DNA of 64,000 nt from an uncultured Treponema sp. (GTDB lineage Bacteria > Spirochaetota > Spirochaetia > Treponematales > Treponemataceae). The stretch lies in contig CAMKEG010000002.1 of NCBI GenBank assembly GCA_946411505.1, positions 348,852-412,851 on the forward strand. The letters are read 5' to 3'. Positions 48,378 to 60,880 of the stretch are shown here, piece after piece (within the stretch, counting starts at the first letter, position 1; each line of letters starts with the position of its first letter). The notes under the pieces were generated by a model. That model did no database searches. It had not been told where the DNA came from and saw only the letters and a list, made by a program, of their open reading frames with translations. A program made the position numbers and the translations under genes.

Positions 48378-49074
48378 AGTGCAAAAACTGTCAGTCAGCT
48401 ACGGCGCGATAAACGCCTTGCGCGAAATCAGCTTTAACGTTGAGCGGGGCGAAATAATTTCTTTGATTGGCTCTAACGGCGCCGGAAAGACGACGACGCT
48501 TCACGCCGTGTCGAACATCATCAAAAAGCGTGGTGGCAAGATTGAGTTTGAGGGCGAGGACATCACAAATTTGGCGCCTGACCAAATAGTCCGCCGCCGC
48601 TTGATTCAAGTGCCGGAAGGAAGGCGCATTTTCTTGAACCTTAGCGTCCGCGACAACTTGGAAATGGGCGCCTTTACGAGAGGCGACAAGGCCGGAATCA
48701 AGGCCGACATGGAAAAGGTCTTTGAATTGTTCCCCCGCCTTAAAGAGCGAATCACGCAGATTAGCGGAACCTTGAGCGGCGGCGAGCTTCAAATGCTTGC
48801 GATGGGCCGCGGCTTGATGGCCCAGCCCAAATTGCTTTTGCTTGACGAGCCCAGCATGGGCTTGGCTCCGATTTTGGTCGACGAGATTTTTGAGATTATC
48901 CAAAAAATCAACAAGGCCGGAACGACGATTTTGCTGGTTGAGCAAAACGCCTTTAAGGCGCTTTCCATCAGCAACCGCGCCTACGTTTTGGAAACAGGCT
49001 CAATCACCAAGGACGGCGACGCCAAGGAATTGGCCAAGGATCCGGCGGTCAAGGAAGCCTATCTGGGCGGTTAA
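48370..49074 (+). CDS. livF: Branched-chain amino acid ABC ATPase LivF
   Basis: The 234-residue ATPase has GSNGAGKTT, the signature LSGGELQMLAMGRGL, LLLLDEPSMGLAP and LLVEQNA. It is the partner of LivG and the last liv gene. Its TAA stop is directly followed by GCGGCG, the start of the two-hairpin element. Confidence 0.95.
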   Translation: MLKVQKLSVSYGAINALREISFNVERGEIISLIGSNGAGKTTTLHAVSNIIKKRGGKIEFEGEDITNLAPDQIVRRRLIQVPEGRRIFLNLSVRDNLEMGAFTRGDKAGIKADMEKVFELFPRLKERITQISGTLSGGELQMLAMGRGLMAQPKLLLLDEPSMGLAPILVDEIFEIIQKINKAGTTILLVEQNAFKALSISNRAYVLETGSITKDGDAKELAKDPAVKEAYLGG

Positions 49075-49145
49075 GCGGCGAAAATAAACGGACGCAAGAC
49101 CAAGAACGAATTTCGCCGCATGAGTCGCAACGCTGCGCTTGCGGC
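49075..49145 (+). repeat. GCGGCG/CGCCGC two-hairpin element, CBS copy
   Basis: Hairpin I (49075-49119) pairs GCGGCGAAA with TTTCGCCGC. After ATGA, hairpin II (49124-49145) pairs GTCGCAA with TTGCGGC. It begins on the base after the livF stop. It shares GCGGCGA and CGCCGCATRAR with the copies before lgt and the tagA-like gene, but hairpin II is a simpler, divergent form. Confidence 0.6.
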
Positions 49146-49159
49146 TTGGTTGTTAAAAT

Positions 49160-49188
49160 TTGCGCAAACGCAAAAGTCGTGGTATAAT
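49160..49188 (+). promoter_or_regulatory. Promoter of the CBS-domain gene
   Basis: TTGCGC (49160-49165), 17 bases, perfect TATAAT (49183-49188). The leader of about 90 bases holds GC-rich repeats and ends in a CGGAGG Shine-Dalgarno. Confidence 0.8.
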
Positions 49189-55180: not shown

Positions 55181-56176
55181 CTAGTTTTTCCTTCCTGCCG
55201 TTTCCCGCCCTTCACTTTTTCGTTTTGCCCAAATTCCCGCTCCCGCAATAATTCCGGCTCCAGCCAAAACCATAAGAAAACACAAAATCTGCCCCGTCGA
55301 AATGTTTAGCAACGAAGTGTTTTGGCTGATTGAGGCGGAAGGGTCGCTTGCGATTCTAAAGCCCAAATCGCTGTCGGGCATTCTAAAGTATTCCAAGAAA
55401 AAGCGGAAGAAGCCGTAGCCTGCCAAGTACATTCCGCTTAAAAATCCGTCAAAAGGCTTTTTCTTTCTAAGCGCCCACAAAATCAAAAAGAGCACGATTC
55501 CTTCAAAAAAAGCTTCGTACAATTGGCTCGGGTGGCGGGGCAAATTTACCAAGGCGCCTTTGCCGACTTCCATTCCCACTGAAGCGGCAAAATCTTTTAC
55601 CCAGTCTATTGATGTTGAAAAGCGCTCGGCGTCCGGGAAAACCATTCCCCAGGGCATTTTTGTGATGCGTCCGTAAAGCTCGCCGTTCAAGAAATTTCCG
55701 ACACGGCCAAATGTGTAGCCAATCGGTATCGCGGTACACATCGCGTCGGTCCACTGCAAGTATGGGCGTTTGTGGATTTTGCACCAAACCCACATGCCGA
55801 GCGTTCCGCCAATGGCGCCGCCGTGGTAGGACATTCCTTGCAGGCCCGTCCATCGTCCGCTTTCGTCAAAGGGCCAAAAAATCAGCCAAGGCTTTGTCAA
55901 ATATTTTCCGCTTGTGTCGTAGATGAGCGTTGAAAAAACGCGGGCGCCAACCAGCAAAAAAACAATTCCCATCGCGATAAAACTGACGACGTCGTCTTCG
56001 CTTGTCTTTAGGCCGCTTGTTTCCAAGGCGCCTTCCTTGAATTGTTTTTTAAGCGCCATGTAGGCGAATCCAAAGGCGAAGACATACATCAAGCCGTACC
56101 AACGCAAAAGCCCAAGCATGGGAACGCTGGGAAAAAGTTCCGGGTGAATCCAGGACGGATAGTTTATGTAAAGCAT
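55181..56176 (-). CDS. lgt: Prolipoprotein diacylglyceryl transferase
   Basis: Lgt adds diacylglycerol to the lipobox cysteine of lipoproteins such as LivK and the COG3014 protein here. The ATG at 56176 (MLYINYPSWIHPELF) has GGAGGAG upstream; the track start is an upstream TTG. The 331-residue protein has about seven membrane helices, the HGG motif in MSYHGGAIGG and the signature RVGNFLNGELYGR. An insertion follows residue 265 before the last helices. It lies downstream of a two-hairpin element and of minD in the same direction. Confidence 0.96.
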   Translation of the reverse strand: MLYINYPSWIHPELFPSVPMLGLLRWYGLMYVFAFGFAYMALKKQFKEGALETSGLKTSEDDVVSFIAMGIVFLLVGARVFSTLIYDTSGKYLTKPWLIFWPFDESGRWTGLQGMSYHGGAIGGTLGMWVWCKIHKRPYLQWTDAMCTAIPIGYTFGRVGNFLNGELYGRITKMPWGMVFPDAERFSTSIDWVKDFAASVGMEVGKGALVNLPRHPSQLYEAFFEGIVLFLILWALRKKKPFDGFLSGMYLAGYGFFRFFLEYFRMPDSDLGFRIASDPSASISQNTSLLNISTGQILCFLMVLAGAGIIAGAGIWAKRKSEGRETAGRKN

Positions 56177-56199
56177 TTTTATCTCCTCCAAATAAAATA

Positions 56200-56290
56200 C
56201 CGCTGTCCACGCGAGCTTGGTTGCGAGCGCGGATGTTGCGGCTTATGCGGCGTCGTCCGCTTTTTTGCTTGCAAACGCGCGCGTCGCCGC
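56200..56290 (-). repeat. GCGGCG/CGCCGC two-hairpin element, lgt leader copy
   Basis: Read on the minus strand. Hairpin I starts at 56290 with GCGGCG, next to the minD stop (TAG), and closes with CGCCGC at 56252-56247. After ATAAG comes hairpin II (56241-56200): CCGC, AACA, TCCGCGC, a 14-base loop, GCGTGGA, CA, GCGG. The lgt Shine-Dalgarno follows about ten bases later. It is a close match to the two tandem copies before the tagA-like gene on the plus strand. Confidence 0.75.
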
Positions 56291-57438
56291 TAAACTTTAT
56301 ATCCTTGCTGGGCCGCTTTGACCAGCTTTGATTTTAGCAACGTGTTTTCCTTGCGGACTTGCGTAAGCTCGTAGGAAAGAGTTTTGATTGTCTCGACCAG
56401 CTCGCCTTCGGTAAGGGCGCCGCTTCCGAGCAAGTCGCGAAGGCCCGCCATCTTGGCCTCGTAGTCTTCCTCCGCCTCTTCGGTGGCCACGTCAAACGAA
56501 TTGTTGACGTTGTCGGCCGGCGGCTCAAACTCGGCGCCAAAGGCCAAGGTTTCGCTTGAAAGAATTTTTTCGGCGATGCGATAGATGGCCTGCGACAAAA
56601 TGTTTTGCGGCTTGTAAATTATGATTGGAAGCCGCGAGGCAAGCGCCTTGTCTTCAAGCGAGTCGCGGTAAAGGACTCCCAAGTGCTCAAGGTCGATTCC
56701 TAAGTATTCCTTGCACGAGCGGCGGATGCGCAGCGCCTTGTCCGCGTCCTTGGGGTCGTCAATCATGTTCATCACAAGGCGCGGGCGGAAAATTTTAAGG
56801 TTCCGCATGACCGCTTCGGAATTCTTTGGGTCGACTTTCACGAGTTCCTGCATCATTTGCGGAATGTATAATTTTTGCATCGCGCTTGAGCTTTTCTTTA
56901 GTTCGCGGAACCACTTGGCCGCTTCGCTCGACGTTTTAAAAGTTGAGTTCATCAAGCGGAACACAGCGTTCTTTAAGAACAAGTAGGCGTTGAGCGTGGC
57001 CGTGACCGCCGGAGCGGAAACGACGATTCCCTGCGGAGAGAGCAGGAACAAGTCCAAAATTATTTGGTGGGTTCCCGCTCCCAAGTCTATGATTAAATAA
57101 TCGCAGTCGATGTTCTTGAAATTTTTTATTATCTTGGAACGTTGCGGGGCCTTGAGCGCGGTGAGGCCCGGAATCTCCGAGTCGCCCGCGATAAAGCTTA
57201 GGTTTTCGTATTCGGTGGGCTGAATGATGTCGGCGAAGTTTCCGTTTCCCAAAAGCCAAGTGCCCAAGCCGTGTTTTGGCGAAGGCTGGCCCAATACAAG
57301 GTGAAGGTTCGACGCGCCCAAGTCAAGGTCGGCCAGCACTACGCGCTTTCCGGCTTGTCCAAGGGCGATGGCCAAGTTTGCGGACAAAAGGCTTTTTCCA
57401 ACGCCGCCCTTTCCGCTGGCAACAGGAATGATTTGCAT
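56290..57438 (-). CDS. MinD/ParA-type ATPase with C-terminal coiled coil
   Basis: The 382-residue protein begins MQIIPVASGKGGVGKSLLSAN, the deviant Walker A of MinD/ParA ATPases, with signature lysines at 10 and 15. DLDLGASNLHLVLG and DYLIIDLGAGTHQIILD complete the nucleotide site. About 100 residues after the core form an acidic linker and a coiled coil (LVETIKTLSYELTQVRKEN, then LLKSKLVKAAQQ). There is no MinD C-terminal amphipathic helix that I can identify. FlhG-like placement of flagella or other polar structures is possible but unproven; no minC, minE or flhF is near. No Shine-Dalgarno precedes its ATG, and a TATAGT lies 11 bases upstream. Confidence 0.8.
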   Translation of the reverse strand: MQIIPVASGKGGVGKSLLSANLAIALGQAGKRVVLADLDLGASNLHLVLGQPSPKHGLGTWLLGNGNFADIIQPTEYENLSFIAGDSEIPGLTALKAPQRSKIIKNFKNIDCDYLIIDLGAGTHQIILDLFLLSPQGIVVSAPAVTATLNAYLFLKNAVFRLMNSTFKTSSEAAKWFRELKKSSSAMQKLYIPQMMQELVKVDPKNSEAVMRNLKIFRPRLVMNMIDDPKDADKALRIRRSCKEYLGIDLEHLGVLYRDSLEDKALASRLPIIIYKPQNILSQAIYRIAEKILSSETLAFGAEFEPPADNVNNSFDVATEEAEEDYEAKMAGLRDLLGSGALTEGELVETIKTLSYELTQVRKENTLLKSKLVKAAQQGYKV

Positions 57439-57532
57439 TTTTTTATTCTACTATAAAATTGAAAAATAGTAAAGAAAGCGGAGCCGCGCGGCCGGGGCAG
57501 CCGTCAGTCGGGCTTTCGCCTCTTCGCCGCTC

Positions 57533-57561
57533 TTGAAAATTCCGCGCTTTAAGCGTATAAT
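57533..57561 (+). promoter_or_regulatory. Promoter of ctpA, eight bases from the ATG
   Basis: TTGAAA (57533-57538), 17 bases, TATAAT (57556-57561), then eight bases to the ATG at 57570. The distances are identical to those at ptsI. Confidence 0.82.
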
Positions 57562-57569
57562 GAAATACT

Positions 57570-59075
57570 ATGAATTTGCATTCGTCTAAGTTGAGAATTT
57601 TCCGCGCGGCGGCTTTCGCGCTGTGCTTTTTTGTTTCGGGCTTTTTTGTTTCAAAATGTTTTGCGGAGAGCGGACAAAAGAATTCCGCCGCCGATTCCAG
57701 CGAATACATTCGGACAATAGCGCAAATCTTCTATACATTGCAAAGCCGTTTTGTGGAAGAGGTTGACCCGGAAGTTTTGTACAAGGGCGCGCTTGACGGA
57801 ATGATGAAATCCCTCAACGACCCTTACACCGTCTACCTTGACTCAAAGGACATGCGAAGCCTCAACGACACGACCGAGGGCGCCTTTTACGGCGTGGGCC
57901 TTTCGATTTCAAAGAGGAACGAATCCAGCGCCGACAACCCGGCTTACGTAGACGTCATTTCTCCGATAGAAGGAACGCCCGGCTACAAGGCGGGAATCCA
58001 GGCCGGCGACAAATTGATAGAAATCAACGGCGAGCCTACGCCCGAAATGTCCATGGAAACCGTCCTTTCAAAATTGCGCGGACCAAAAGGCGAGGGCGTA
58101 GAAGTCACGGTTTTGCGCGGAAAGAGCGTCACATTTAAAAGAACTTTGATTCGCGACTTGATAGAGGTTCCGACAGTTGAGTTTGGAACGCTTCAAGGCA
58201 AAAAAAATCTTTACGGCTACATGAAGCTAATTCAATTCACCCCGGACACGGTTCCGCGCGTCCATGAAGCGATTGATTCATTTAAAGAAAAAAAATGCTC
58301 AGGGCTAATCATAGACTTGCGAAACAATCCGGGCGGACTTTTGGACAGCGCCGCCAAAATCGGAGACTTCTTCATTGACGAAGGCCCGATTGTAAGCACA
58401 AAAAGCCGCTTGGCTTACGAGTCGCGCTCAATCAACGCCAGCGCCGACAACACGATTGTAAAAGATTTGCCGATTGTCGTTTTGATAAACAAGGGCTCCG
58501 CCTCCGCGTCGGAAATTTTGAGCGGCGCGCTTAAAGACAACCACTTGGCCTATTTGGTCGGCGAGCGCACTTACGGCAAGGGCAGCGTTCAGCAAGTCAT
58601 GACGCTTAAGCATGACGACGGAATCAAGGTGACGATGGCGCGCTACTACACGCCCAGCGACACCAACATCGACAAAATCGGAATTCCGCCGGACAAGGAA
58701 ATTACCCTCAGCCCTGAATACACGGAAGAGCAGACAAAGGCCTTCTTAAAGCTTTCCGAAGACGAGACGATTAGAAAATATGTCGAAGGCCATCCTGACA
58801 TGACGGAAGCCGACATTGCCGAGTACGCGAAAGTTTTGCAAAAGGACTATGACTTGGATTTGCGCCTGCTTCGCCGCTTGGTTAGAATTGAGGTTGGCCG
58901 CACAAAAGACCCTCGCCTTTACGACTTGGATTTTGACGTCCAGCTTGTCGAAGCGATGAACGTTCTTGACCAAGGAAATTTCAAGGACTTGGTGAAGGGC
59001 ACAAAAACTTTGAAAGAGTTGCAGGAAGAGGCCGAAGCCAAGGCCGAACAAGGCGATTCTGAAGCCAAGAAATAA
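57570..59075 (+). CDS. C-terminal processing peptidase (S41)
   Basis: The 501-residue exported protease has an N-terminal signal/anchor (FRAAAFALCFFVSGFFVSKCFA), a helical region (DPEVLYKGALDGMMKSLNDPYTVYL), a PDZ domain (VISPIEGTPGYKAGIQAGDKLI) and the S41 core. The nucleophile serine is in NKGSASASEILSG and the general-base lysine in YGKGSVQQV. It cleaves C-terminal tails of envelope proteins. A Cys in the signal region (VSKCFAE) is not a clear lipobox. The mRNA appears leaderless. Its stop overlaps the rsmE start (TAATG). Confidence 0.93.
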   Translation: MNLHSSKLRIFRAAAFALCFFVSGFFVSKCFAESGQKNSAADSSEYIRTIAQIFYTLQSRFVEEVDPEVLYKGALDGMMKSLNDPYTVYLDSKDMRSLNDTTEGAFYGVGLSISKRNESSADNPAYVDVISPIEGTPGYKAGIQAGDKLIEINGEPTPEMSMETVLSKLRGPKGEGVEVTVLRGKSVTFKRTLIRDLIEVPTVEFGTLQGKKNLYGYMKLIQFTPDTVPRVHEAIDSFKEKKCSGLIIDLRNNPGGLLDSAAKIGDFFIDEGPIVSTKSRLAYESRSINASADNTIVKDLPIVVLINKGSASASEILSGALKDNHLAYLVGERTYGKGSVQQVMTLKHDDGIKVTMARYYTPSDTNIDKIGIPPDKEITLSPEYTEEQTKAFLKLSEDETIRKYVEGHPDMTEADIAEYAKVLQKDYDLDLRLLRRLVRIEVGRTKDPRLYDLDFDVQLVEAMNVLDQGNFKDLVKGTKTLKELQEEAEAKAEQGDSEAKK

Positions 59076-59914
59076 TGAGACAATTTGTTTCCGCCGTCGC
59101 GCCAAATTCAAAAGGCCTCTTGGAAATCACGGGGAAGGATTTTCATTACCTTAGAAAAGTTTTGCGCTTGTCGCCCGGAGACATGATTAGCCTTTCGCTT
59201 CCCGGCGGCGTTTTGCAGGACGCCACCATTTGCAAGATTGACGACGGCGCAAAAAAAATTGAGCTGCAAATTTGCGATTCGCAAGGCCTAAACCGCGACG
59301 GACAAGATTGCCCGCAAGGCCAGGAAGCCGCCGCGCGGACCCGGCTTGTTCTTTTGCAGTTCATTCCAAAGCCGCAAAAGATGGAGTTGATTGTCCGCCA
59401 GGCTGTCGAATGCGGCGTGGCCGCGATTGTTCCCGTAATCGGAGAATACACGCAAGCAGGTTTTGACAAAGCCTTGCAAAAGCCCGGCCGTTTTGAAAAA
59501 ATAATTCGCGAGGCGCGCCAGCAAAGCGGCTCGCAAGTTGAGACGCAAGTTTTTCCGCCTTGCAAGTTGCCGGCCGCGCTTGGCTTGATTGACAAAAATG
59601 AGCCGGCCGCCTTGAGGCTTTTTTTGTATGAAAGAACGGAAGGAACGCTTCCGCTTTCCGCCGCGCTTTTTGGACAAGAACAAGACTGCTCTAAAGCCCA
59701 GGAAGCCGCCGCCGCAAGTTTTGGCCTTGCAAAAAGCCGCGCTCCAAAATCTTGCGTTTACGCTGTTGGCTGCGAAGGCGGAATAAGTCCCGCCGAATGC
59801 GAGCTTCTTTTGTCGCGCGGCTTTAAGGCCGCGCACTTTAACACGAATATATTGCGCTGCGAGACCGCGTCGCTTTACGCGGCGGCGGCAATCCAAAGCG
59901 CTTTGGACAACTAG
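59075..59914 (+). CDS. rsmE: 16S rRNA (uridine1498-N3)-methyltransferase RsmE
   Basis: The 279-residue SPOUT-type enzyme has an N-terminal PUA-like part (FHYLRKVLRLSPGDMISL) and a knotted C-terminus with YAVGCEGGISPAECELL and NTNILRCETASLYAAAAIQS. It uses SAM to methylate U1498 of 16S rRNA. A low-complexity insertion (about residues 175-220) makes it longer than the usual 240-250. Translation is coupled to ctpA. Confidence 0.92.
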   Translation: MRQFVSAVAPNSKGLLEITGKDFHYLRKVLRLSPGDMISLSLPGGVLQDATICKIDDGAKKIELQICDSQGLNRDGQDCPQGQEAAARTRLVLLQFIPKPQKMELIVRQAVECGVAAIVPVIGEYTQAGFDKALQKPGRFEKIIREARQQSGSQVETQVFPPCKLPAALGLIDKNEPAALRLFLYERTEGTLPLSAALFGQEQDCSKAQEAAAASFGLAKSRAPKSCVYAVGCEGGISPAECELLLSRGFKAAHFNTNILRCETASLYAAAAIQSALDN

Positions 59915-59918
59915 GGTA

Positions 59919-60131
59919 GGAGGACTAGCGGCGATAAAATCGGAGGCACGCCAAAGATTGAACGACGCCGCATGAGCGACAACATCCGCGCTCGCGACCA
60001 AACTCGCGCGGACAGTCGTATTATATGGAGGACTAGCGGCGATAAAATCGGAGGCAATCCAAAGATTGAAAGACGCCGCATAAACGGCAACAAACGCGCG
60101 CGCGAGGCTTGCGCGTTCAGCCGTAATATAT
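59919..60131 (+). repeat. Tandem two-hairpin elements in the tagA-like leader
   Basis: Two tandem units of about 108 and 105 bases each begin with GGAGGACTAGCGGCG; a third GGAGGACTA is the Shine-Dalgarno of the gene. Unit 1: hairpin I 59928-59971, hairpin II 59977-60018. Unit 2: hairpin I 60036-60079, hairpin II 60085-60123. In hairpin II the lower stem is CGAC/GTCG in unit 1 and CGGC/GCCG in unit 2. The upper stem is TCCGCGC/GCGCGGA in unit 1 and AACGCGC/GCGCGTT in unit 2. The internal loop AACA/CA is unchanged. These are compensatory changes. Confidence 0.8.
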
Positions 60132-60142
60132 GGAGGACTAAA

Positions 60143-60880
60143 ATGGCTATCGAAAGAATTGACATAGCGGGAGTTGGCGTCGACATTTGCCGGCCTGAAA
60201 ACCTTGAGAGCGAAATTTTGGAATTGCTAGCGAAGCCCGGCACAAAACAAATTGTGTTCCTTTCCATTTGGGGGCTCTTGAAGGCTCGCGGAAAAAACAC
60301 TTTCGCCGAATGCGTAAAAAACGCCGACCTTGTCCTTCCGATTTCAAAAAGCATTTTAAAGGCCGCGGCCTTCTTGAAGCGCGAAGTTCCTAACCGCTAC
60401 AATCCGTTCAACGGCCTTATAGACATTCTTTCGATTTTGGATTCCCATTACAGAAGCTTTTACATTTTAGGCGGAAAGAAAAAGTCTCTCCAAAAGTCCG
60501 TCGGCAACGTTATGAAGACTTTTCCAAATTTGCGAATCGTCGGCCGTTATGTCGGCTACTATCCCAAAACTCAAGAGGACGACATAATTCAAGCGATATA
60601 CAAAGCCTCGCCGTCTTTGGTGTTGCTCAGCGAAGGAATCAAGGAAAAAGACTGCTGGCCTTACAACCGCCGAAACCGCTTTTCCTCAAGCGTTTTCATT
60701 TATTACCGAGACGCAATCGGAATTTTCAGCGACCAAGTTCATCGTGTCAGCGAAGCCACCTTCAACGCCGGGCGTGAAATTTGGAGCGAAATTTTACGAA
60801 ATCCGATAAAAATTTTCTTGCTTTTTCCGTATTTATACTTTAAAATATTACTTGTCTGGTACAGAATTTTTAAAAAGTAA
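60143..60880 (+). CDS. WecG/TagA/CpsF-family glycosyltransferase
   Basis: The track frame starts inside the repeats; ATG 60143 behind GGAGGA is the start. The 245-residue protein shows the GT26 layout: an N-terminal VGVDICRPENLESEILELL, the VFLSIWGLLKARGKN strand, NADLVLPISKSILKAAAF, then YILGGKKKSLQKSV and LRIVGRYVGYYP. Members transfer N-acetylmannosamine-type sugars onto lipid-linked acceptors. The C-terminal helix with basic residues (FLLFPYLYFKILLVWYRIFKK) could hold it at the membrane. The substrate is not evident. A translational or leader control by the tandem hairpins is likely. Confidence 0.85.
   Translation: MAIERIDIAGVGVDICRPENLESEILELLAKPGTKQIVFLSIWGLLKARGKNTFAECVKNADLVLPISKSILKAAAFLKREVPNRYNPFNGLIDILSILDSHYRSFYILGGKKKSLQKSVGNVMKTFPNLRIVGRYVGYYPKTQEDDIIQAIYKASPSLVLLSEGIKEKDCWPYNRRNRFSSSVFIYYRDAIGIFSDQVHRVSEATFNAGREIWSEILRNPIKIFLLFPYLYFKILLVWYRIFKK

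Follow-up and report, generated by a model that had tools for sequence, protein, structure and literature searches.

A family of repeats, each about 100 nt long, is dispersed through the genomes of a limited set of rumen Treponema. The copies share a conserved structure of two hairpins, lie predominantly in the sense of transcription, are anchored at upstream stop codons, are present in one species and absent from the same junction in another, and diverge little in their stems at sites that species share. We read them, with moderate confidence, as copies of a REP-like mobile two-hairpin repeat which selection maintains behind stop codons as an element of the mRNA; the mobile repeat probably also has some role in mRNA. 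Four copies lie in the window, the 64,000-nt stretch of DNA from an uncultured Treponema sp. that was analyzed here (Table 1).

Table 1. Copies of the two-hairpin repeat and their neighboring genes in the window.
Feature	Position	Strand	Context	Evidence
Copy 1	56191..56291	minus	between MinD/ParA-like gene stop and lgt	sequence, 102.5-bit model match, folding
Copy 2	59927..60026	plus	first of tandem pair, behind RsmE-like gene and GGAGGACT	sequence, 108.8 bits
Copy 3	60035..60131	plus	second of tandem pair, before tagA/WecG-like gene (ATG 60143)	sequence, 95.5 bits
Copy 4 (CBS copy), divergent	49073..49184	plus	behind ABC transporter ATPase gene	sequence, 46.4 bits, E 6.8e-9
8-nt spacer GGAGGACT	60027..60034	plus	between copies 2 and 3	sequence
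lgt, prolipoprotein diacylglyceryl transferase	55181..56176	minus		Pfam PF01790 E 1.6e-62
MinD/ParA-like ATPase gene	56290..57438	minus	upstream of copy 1	Pfam PF10609/PF01656
RsmE-like rRNA methyltransferase gene	59075..59914	plus	upstream of copies 2 and 3	Pfam PF04452 E 2.7e-35
WecG/TagA-family glycosyltransferase	60143..60880	plus	downstream of copies 2 and 3	Pfam PF03808 E 2.4e-28

All four copies are real and lie where the initial annotation of the window had placed them, but the genome holds about a hundred copies and not four. The window has five pairs of GCGGCG...CGCCGCA spaced 20-50 nt apart where 0.46 would be expected; none of 100 shuffles reaches five, and four of the five pairs are these copies. 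The lower stems CCGC/GCGG, CGAC/GTCG and CGGC/GCCG, the AACA/CA loop and the upper stems read as they had been described; the GCGGCG that had been taken as the beginning is indeed an arm of hairpin I, although the true first base lies one position earlier, at the A of (T)AGCGGC. Copy 1 supplies the AG of the upstream TAG stop (56292-56290) and consists of hairpin I (GCGGCG/CGCCGC), the linker ATAAG, hairpin II (CCGC-AACA-TCCGCGC/GCGTGGA-CA-GCGG) and the tail TATTTTATT; lgt begins at ATG 56176-56174, with the Shine-Dalgarno sequence GGAGGA immediately 5' of it. Copies 2 and 3 form a direct repeat with a spacing of 108 nt, and the RsmE-like gene upstream ends at TAG 59912-59914. The spacer between them is found again before copy 2 (59919-59926) and before tagA (60132-60139), a kind of duplication seen at few copies or junctions genome-wide. 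Copy 2 is common to the sister genome G035 (MAG RUG13809), with few differences across the element, and copy 3 is missing there, where the tagA junction holds one copy with a nested insert. Copy 4 (genome coordinates C2:397924-398035) provides the last A of the upstream TAA (49072-49074), does not end at a Shine-Dalgarno sequence, and combines an intact hairpin I with a short variant of hairpin II, a subtype also present at the loci L155, L157, and L160; by its model match, it is a genuine but divergent member of the family.

The consensus of 40 copies of this genome is TAGCGGCAAnAAAATnGnTnGCAAGCCnAAAAnTGnAnGATnGCCGCATAAGCCGCAACATTCGCGCTCGCAACCAAGCTCGCGCGAACAGCGGTAnTnTTnGG, with the layout AGCGGC-(hairpin I)-GCCGC-ATRAG-(hairpin II with fixed AACA/CA internal loop)-TAYTGTTT. 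A search of the genome with the consensus gave 44 places, while a covariance model built from the same 40 copies gave, among the best 150 of 2969 candidates scored, at least 98 matches in the 2.8-Mb genome at E ≤ 0.1 and at least 55 above 70 bits, the copy counts being based on these searches and on individual extracted stretches. The initial annotation had proposed such a model search for further copies, and many of those found lie between stop codons and Shine-Dalgarno sites. Identity between paralogous copies in the genome has a median of 73% and does not exceed 90%, so that no very recent copying is seen. When 200 genomes of the genus were searched, ten proved to be carriers, each with 10 or more matches; in a set of 59 genomes taken as relatives, G035 alone has the family in number, and three others gave weak single matches. 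An exact-pattern search of GTDB r220 returned 66 stretches, all from Treponema or Spirochaetaceae MAGs, for which the body site, where stated, is the rumen or reticulum of ruminants, and the same pattern had no match in viral contigs. The remark that no RNA family of such a form is known agrees with Rfam, which at the gathering score gave no family match in the window apart from two tRNAs, and a search of the published literature found no description of the repeat family.

RNA folding gives two hairpins for each of the three good copies (z -2.5, -1.8, and -3.2) and z -0.2 for the CBS copy, and RNAalifold returns a stem I of GCGGC/GCCGC and a hairpin II with a lower stem of 4 bp, the AACA/CA internal loop, and an upper stem of 7 bp. 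The earlier suggestion of a selected structure with paired changes is borne out by 97 non-training matches from other loci and species, in which 99.6% of cells are paired and 69 cells hold double changes, spread over eight pairs; none of 500 shuffles reaches any of these measures, and slid controls are 16-68% paired. Because the model had guided this alignment and an exact pattern spanning one stem arm had been used to retrieve many of its loci, 139 copies were also aligned with MAFFT alone as a structure-free control. Here the column pairs 54-93 (C-G in 77 copies, G-C in 61) and 62-87 (T-A, C-G, or A-T) rank first in mutual information, and the top columns are mostly stem partners (also 61-88, 6-44, 63-86, 64-85, and 65-84). 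The 40-copy alignment of this genome agrees, with one pair that is C-G in 21 copies and G-C in 18. One-sided changes to G-U occur in only 3 of 1480 cells, a scarcity that looks more like pairing at the DNA level than like slow RNA compensation; since it is odd for a slowly evolving RNA stem, a role as a DNA hairpin stays open. As a separate observation, the hairpin I half is near-identical in two species at L033 (1370-1660) and L137 (1460-1710), about 80 nt apart in position, and in each it continues into a different hairpin II half, as though halves had been swapped.

The gene context of 120 copies was taken from a simple codon-scored gene caller. Most copies (84) lie between two genes that both run in the sense of the element, 21 are at convergent junctions, where they share the sense of the upstream gene and have no sense gene downstream, six are at divergent junctions, and four are fully antisense; the upstream gene shares the sense of the element in 110 of the 120. 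The initial annotation had considered that further copies might be missing, or might be equally common in antisense and devoid of covariation; at codirectional junctions 84 sense copies stand against 4 antisense ones (p 1.6e-20), with the strong covariation described above. Of 107 copies, 53 begin no more than 3 nt from the stop codon of the upstream gene, typically as T/AG, TA/A, or TG/A (the slash marks the element start), and in another 25 the upstream reading frame extends into the element for a few codons. The distance from the element end to the next start codon is most often 15-19 nt. In convergent contexts the tail TACTGTTT is followed by unconserved sequence, and GGAGG is found only where a sense gene follows; the Shine-Dalgarno sequence is therefore that of the next gene, not the end of the element as had been supposed, and the shared anchor is the upstream stop. 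An element with a Shine-Dalgarno sequence of its own, hinted at by L033 and the tandem copies, was dropped because of the same convergent contexts. The downstream genes include lgt and a WecG/TagA transferase by Pfam and, as read by eye from the sequence, cmk, panC, trpA, flgG, flgK, xseB, thiD, and others, and by these assignments the neighbors are functionally unrelated and of every kind. One copy (L118, in G035) abuts the T-run of an apparent terminator, not a stop codon, and the sister site is empty.

Comparison with sister species shows that copies have been both gained and lost. In the flanks, G035 has an identity of about 90%; at L033, GTAAATTGGAGGACT-(element)-AAAAAAATGG stands against TAAATTGGAGGACTAAAAAAATGG in G035, and at L089, AAAAT-(element)-AGGAGACTAATATG stands against AAAATAGGAGACTAATATG, each a filled and an empty version of one site. 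The lgt junction has no element in G190, G035, G191, and G128, where it reads ...AAAATATGA and the upstream stop overlaps the lgt start (ATGA), and is a short AAAGTATGA in G107; in the genome studied here it spans 100 nt, with a new TAG and a separate GGAGGA. Since G084 and G180 hold apparent decayed pieces of the element at this junction, the insertion may predate the species, with loss in other genomes. G035 and eight further carriers have sites that are empty or bear deletion scars, and other junctions are patchy. In the scars, for example TAGCGGTAGGAGG, AGCGG is joined to GTA, which suggests deletion between the ends of the element, and the idea that all empty sites reflect recent gains was rejected because several sisters hold such scars or decayed remnants. 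Flank duplications with a score of 7 or more were found at 8 of 133 copies against 1.7 expected and most copies have none, so general target duplication was rejected for most of the 133 copies checked. Insertions separate tight operon junctions and often complete the stop codon (T/AG). These observations favor one of the two roles that the initial annotation had offered, a mobile hairpin using intergenic gaps. The other, translational control of envelope genes, fits poorly with neighbors of every kind, with the convergent copies, with a Shine-Dalgarno sequence outside the unit, and with lgt and tagA copies that are empty, decayed, or rearranged in sisters.

Once resident, the copies change unevenly. 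At 11 junctions filled in both this genome (G000) and G035, found by the model and not by the exact pattern and forming few unbiased species pairs, the stems differ by 1.7%, the internal loop by 3.0% (2/66), the hairpin II loop by 2.8%, the hairpin I loop by 7.3%, the tail by 10.4%, and the flank, mostly coding DNA, by 10.9%. Larger sets of loci give the same order, with the tail as the least conserved part, but are biased by the way in which they were fetched. An estimate from the GTDB loci (stems 0.8% against 21.6% at third codon positions) was set aside because these had been fetched by an exact pattern on one stem arm, and the 11 model-found pairs are relied on for that reason. At one site (L076/L111) two pair changes are compensated; the loops differ there too, so these changes may stem from replacement with another copy. 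Overall, the resident copies show what appear to be signs of constraint.

The strongest alternative, possible though on balance doubtful, is a purely selfish miniature element: a transposase (REP/RAYT or IS200/IS605-derived) would use its single-stranded hairpins as substrates in trans, and transposition alone would maintain the stems. Gain and loss, the tandem copies, two subterminal hairpins, the lack of general target duplication, and the near absence of G-U pairs are all in line with this explanation, as is a 5' end that gives a TAG stop as in GTAG-REPs (PMC3733652). However, the search for a Y1 transposase (Y1_Tnp, PF01797), which was positive in control genomes and in two non-carrier congeners, gave nothing in any of the ten carriers; several carrier assemblies are incomplete (82-99% complete), which makes absence from a single genome weak evidence, but absence from all ten is not easily explained by gaps. 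The low divergence of stems and internal loop at resident sites also speaks against selfish DNA, and the 84:4 bias toward the transcribed strand is hard to obtain by replication-strand insertion alone. IS110 was detected in one of the ten carriers and a reverse transcriptase in two, neither being common to the carriers. One RVT_1 reverse transcriptase gene lies at G000:C1:456625-457173 (L320). An autonomous parent with an open reading frame between the two halves was not found, only small nested hairpin inserts of 54-141 nt, and a 2.4-kb span taken as a candidate parent proved to be two separate copies.

Several other repeats were met in these genomes. A second, hairpin-forming mini-repeat of 54-68 nt (ACGG...CCGTTTTGC...TTACTTGCGCTC..GAGCGC.GGCAAT) lies within copies of the two-hairpin element, where it interrupts them at three recurring positions and in each case behind a T; it occurs at L066 (minus 1392-1457), L067, L008, L138, L139, L154, L156, L157, and others, is present or absent between sister species, and has relatives elsewhere in the genomes. 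A third short palindromic repeat (GTCAAGGCTTTAAGCGCAAGCGTGCCTTGAC-like) lies in the downstream part of L060 and has more than a dozen matches in G035. A longer repeat with CGCCGCATAAGCGGCGGAGTAAAATAGTTTCAAGCGCAAGCAG-like DNA (L001, L020, L025) occurs at least three times in the genome and has the motif CGCCGCATRAG in common with the two-hairpin element, but is otherwise different.

Explanations in which the repeat acts as a conventional signal fare worse. A tail consensus of TAYTGTTT directly behind a G+C-rich hairpin could make hairpin II a weak intrinsic terminator or attenuator, but this is very unlikely: a terminator scan passed over all three good copies in their sense orientation and listed only the short hairpin of the CBS copy, found 28 candidates overall against 23 expected by chance, and the tail is the least conserved part of an element that mostly lies between codirectional genes. 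That the repeat is a cis-regulatory leader of the downstream gene, a riboswitch or translational switch, is scarcely credible despite its conserved structure and the many copies that end just before a Shine-Dalgarno sequence, as 21 of 120 copies face a convergent gene and have a tail without one, the downstream genes are unrelated, and the same gene is often without the element in sister species. The R boxes of integron attC sites are RYYYAAC/GTTRRRY. An attC-type site, suggested by a hairpin with unpaired bases in one orientation between a stop and the next gene, can be dismissed: on a reading of the consensus, the two ends are not made of R boxes and the element's AAC faces CA without pairing, and the copies are scattered through the genome at ordinary junctions.

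Under the preferred reading, a mobile repeat kept as an mRNA element, a dispersed non-coding unit of about 100 nt would have spread in a rumen Treponema clade by entering in sense orientation at or just behind a stop, usually in the few bases before the Shine-Dalgarno sequence of the next gene. The AG with which it begins, placed behind T, TA, or TG, often supplies the stop codon. Inserted in this way, it would be transcribed as two hairpins directly behind the stop. These may shield the 3' end of the upstream message, act on ribosomes at the stop, or both, and may separate the translation of formerly overlapping neighbors, while the internal loop is probably a binding site. Such a role in 3' protection, at terminating ribosomes, and in uncoupling would resemble that of E. 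coli REPs near stops; as related in PMC12306157, which cites earlier work, REPs ≤15 nt from a stop reportedly cause ribosomes to stall and reduce translation. A bolder proposal, tentative and rather unlikely, is a new class of mobile mRNA module that inserts or is tolerated only in the transcribed strand at stops, perhaps directed to transcripts by a putative enzyme, remodels operon junctions by moving coupled genes apart and providing a stop, and was later selected as a protein-binding 3' element of scores of unrelated genes.

The usual view of REP-like repeats is that they are DNA parasites whose effects on RNA are incidental. The Treponema repeat is strand-locked to transcription, anchored at stops, and bears signs of constraint in ten related species. 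Empty and filled versions of the same junction, such as lgt coupled through ATGA or separated by the element, are natural before-and-after pairs which allow one to ask whether a mobile hairpin alters translation termination, coupling, or mRNA decay, and the repeat offers a setting in which to seek a mobilizer outside the known transposases.

Among known systems, REPs are likewise palindromic, extragenic, present in high copy, located downstream of genes, and often give a TAG stop with their ends; they lie mostly between unidirectional or convergent ORFs, and their CGTC class is without a dedicated transposase (PMC3733652). A REP, however, is a single imperfect palindrome of 20-40 nt, whereas the Treponema unit of about 100 nt has two different hairpins with a fixed AACA/CA loop and one fixed orientation relative to genes. 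The base before TAG is mixed (GTAG 20, ATAG 39, TTAG 27, and CTAG 23 of 139), so that there is no GTAG tag, and RAYT was found in none of the ten carriers. MITEs are also short, non-coding, dispersed, and polymorphic for presence, but the Treponema repeat lacks terminal inverted repeats (its ends are AGCGGCAA and ...GTAYTGTTT), target duplication is not general, the search gave no related transposase, and stem divergence at resident sites is low. Elements derived from IS200/IS605 share subterminal hairpins without terminal inverted repeats; the hairpins are present in the repeat, and Y1 is absent from the carriers but present in the two non-carrier congeners. Enterobacterial repeat units (RU) and Rickettsia palindromic elements are likewise small repeats that insert near or in genes, but differ in structure and host group and are set apart by their description. 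Although its size, the missing tag, and the missing RAYT keep it from being a REP proper, the Treponema repeat is nearest in kind to REPs and miniature elements and is best regarded as a variant of them.
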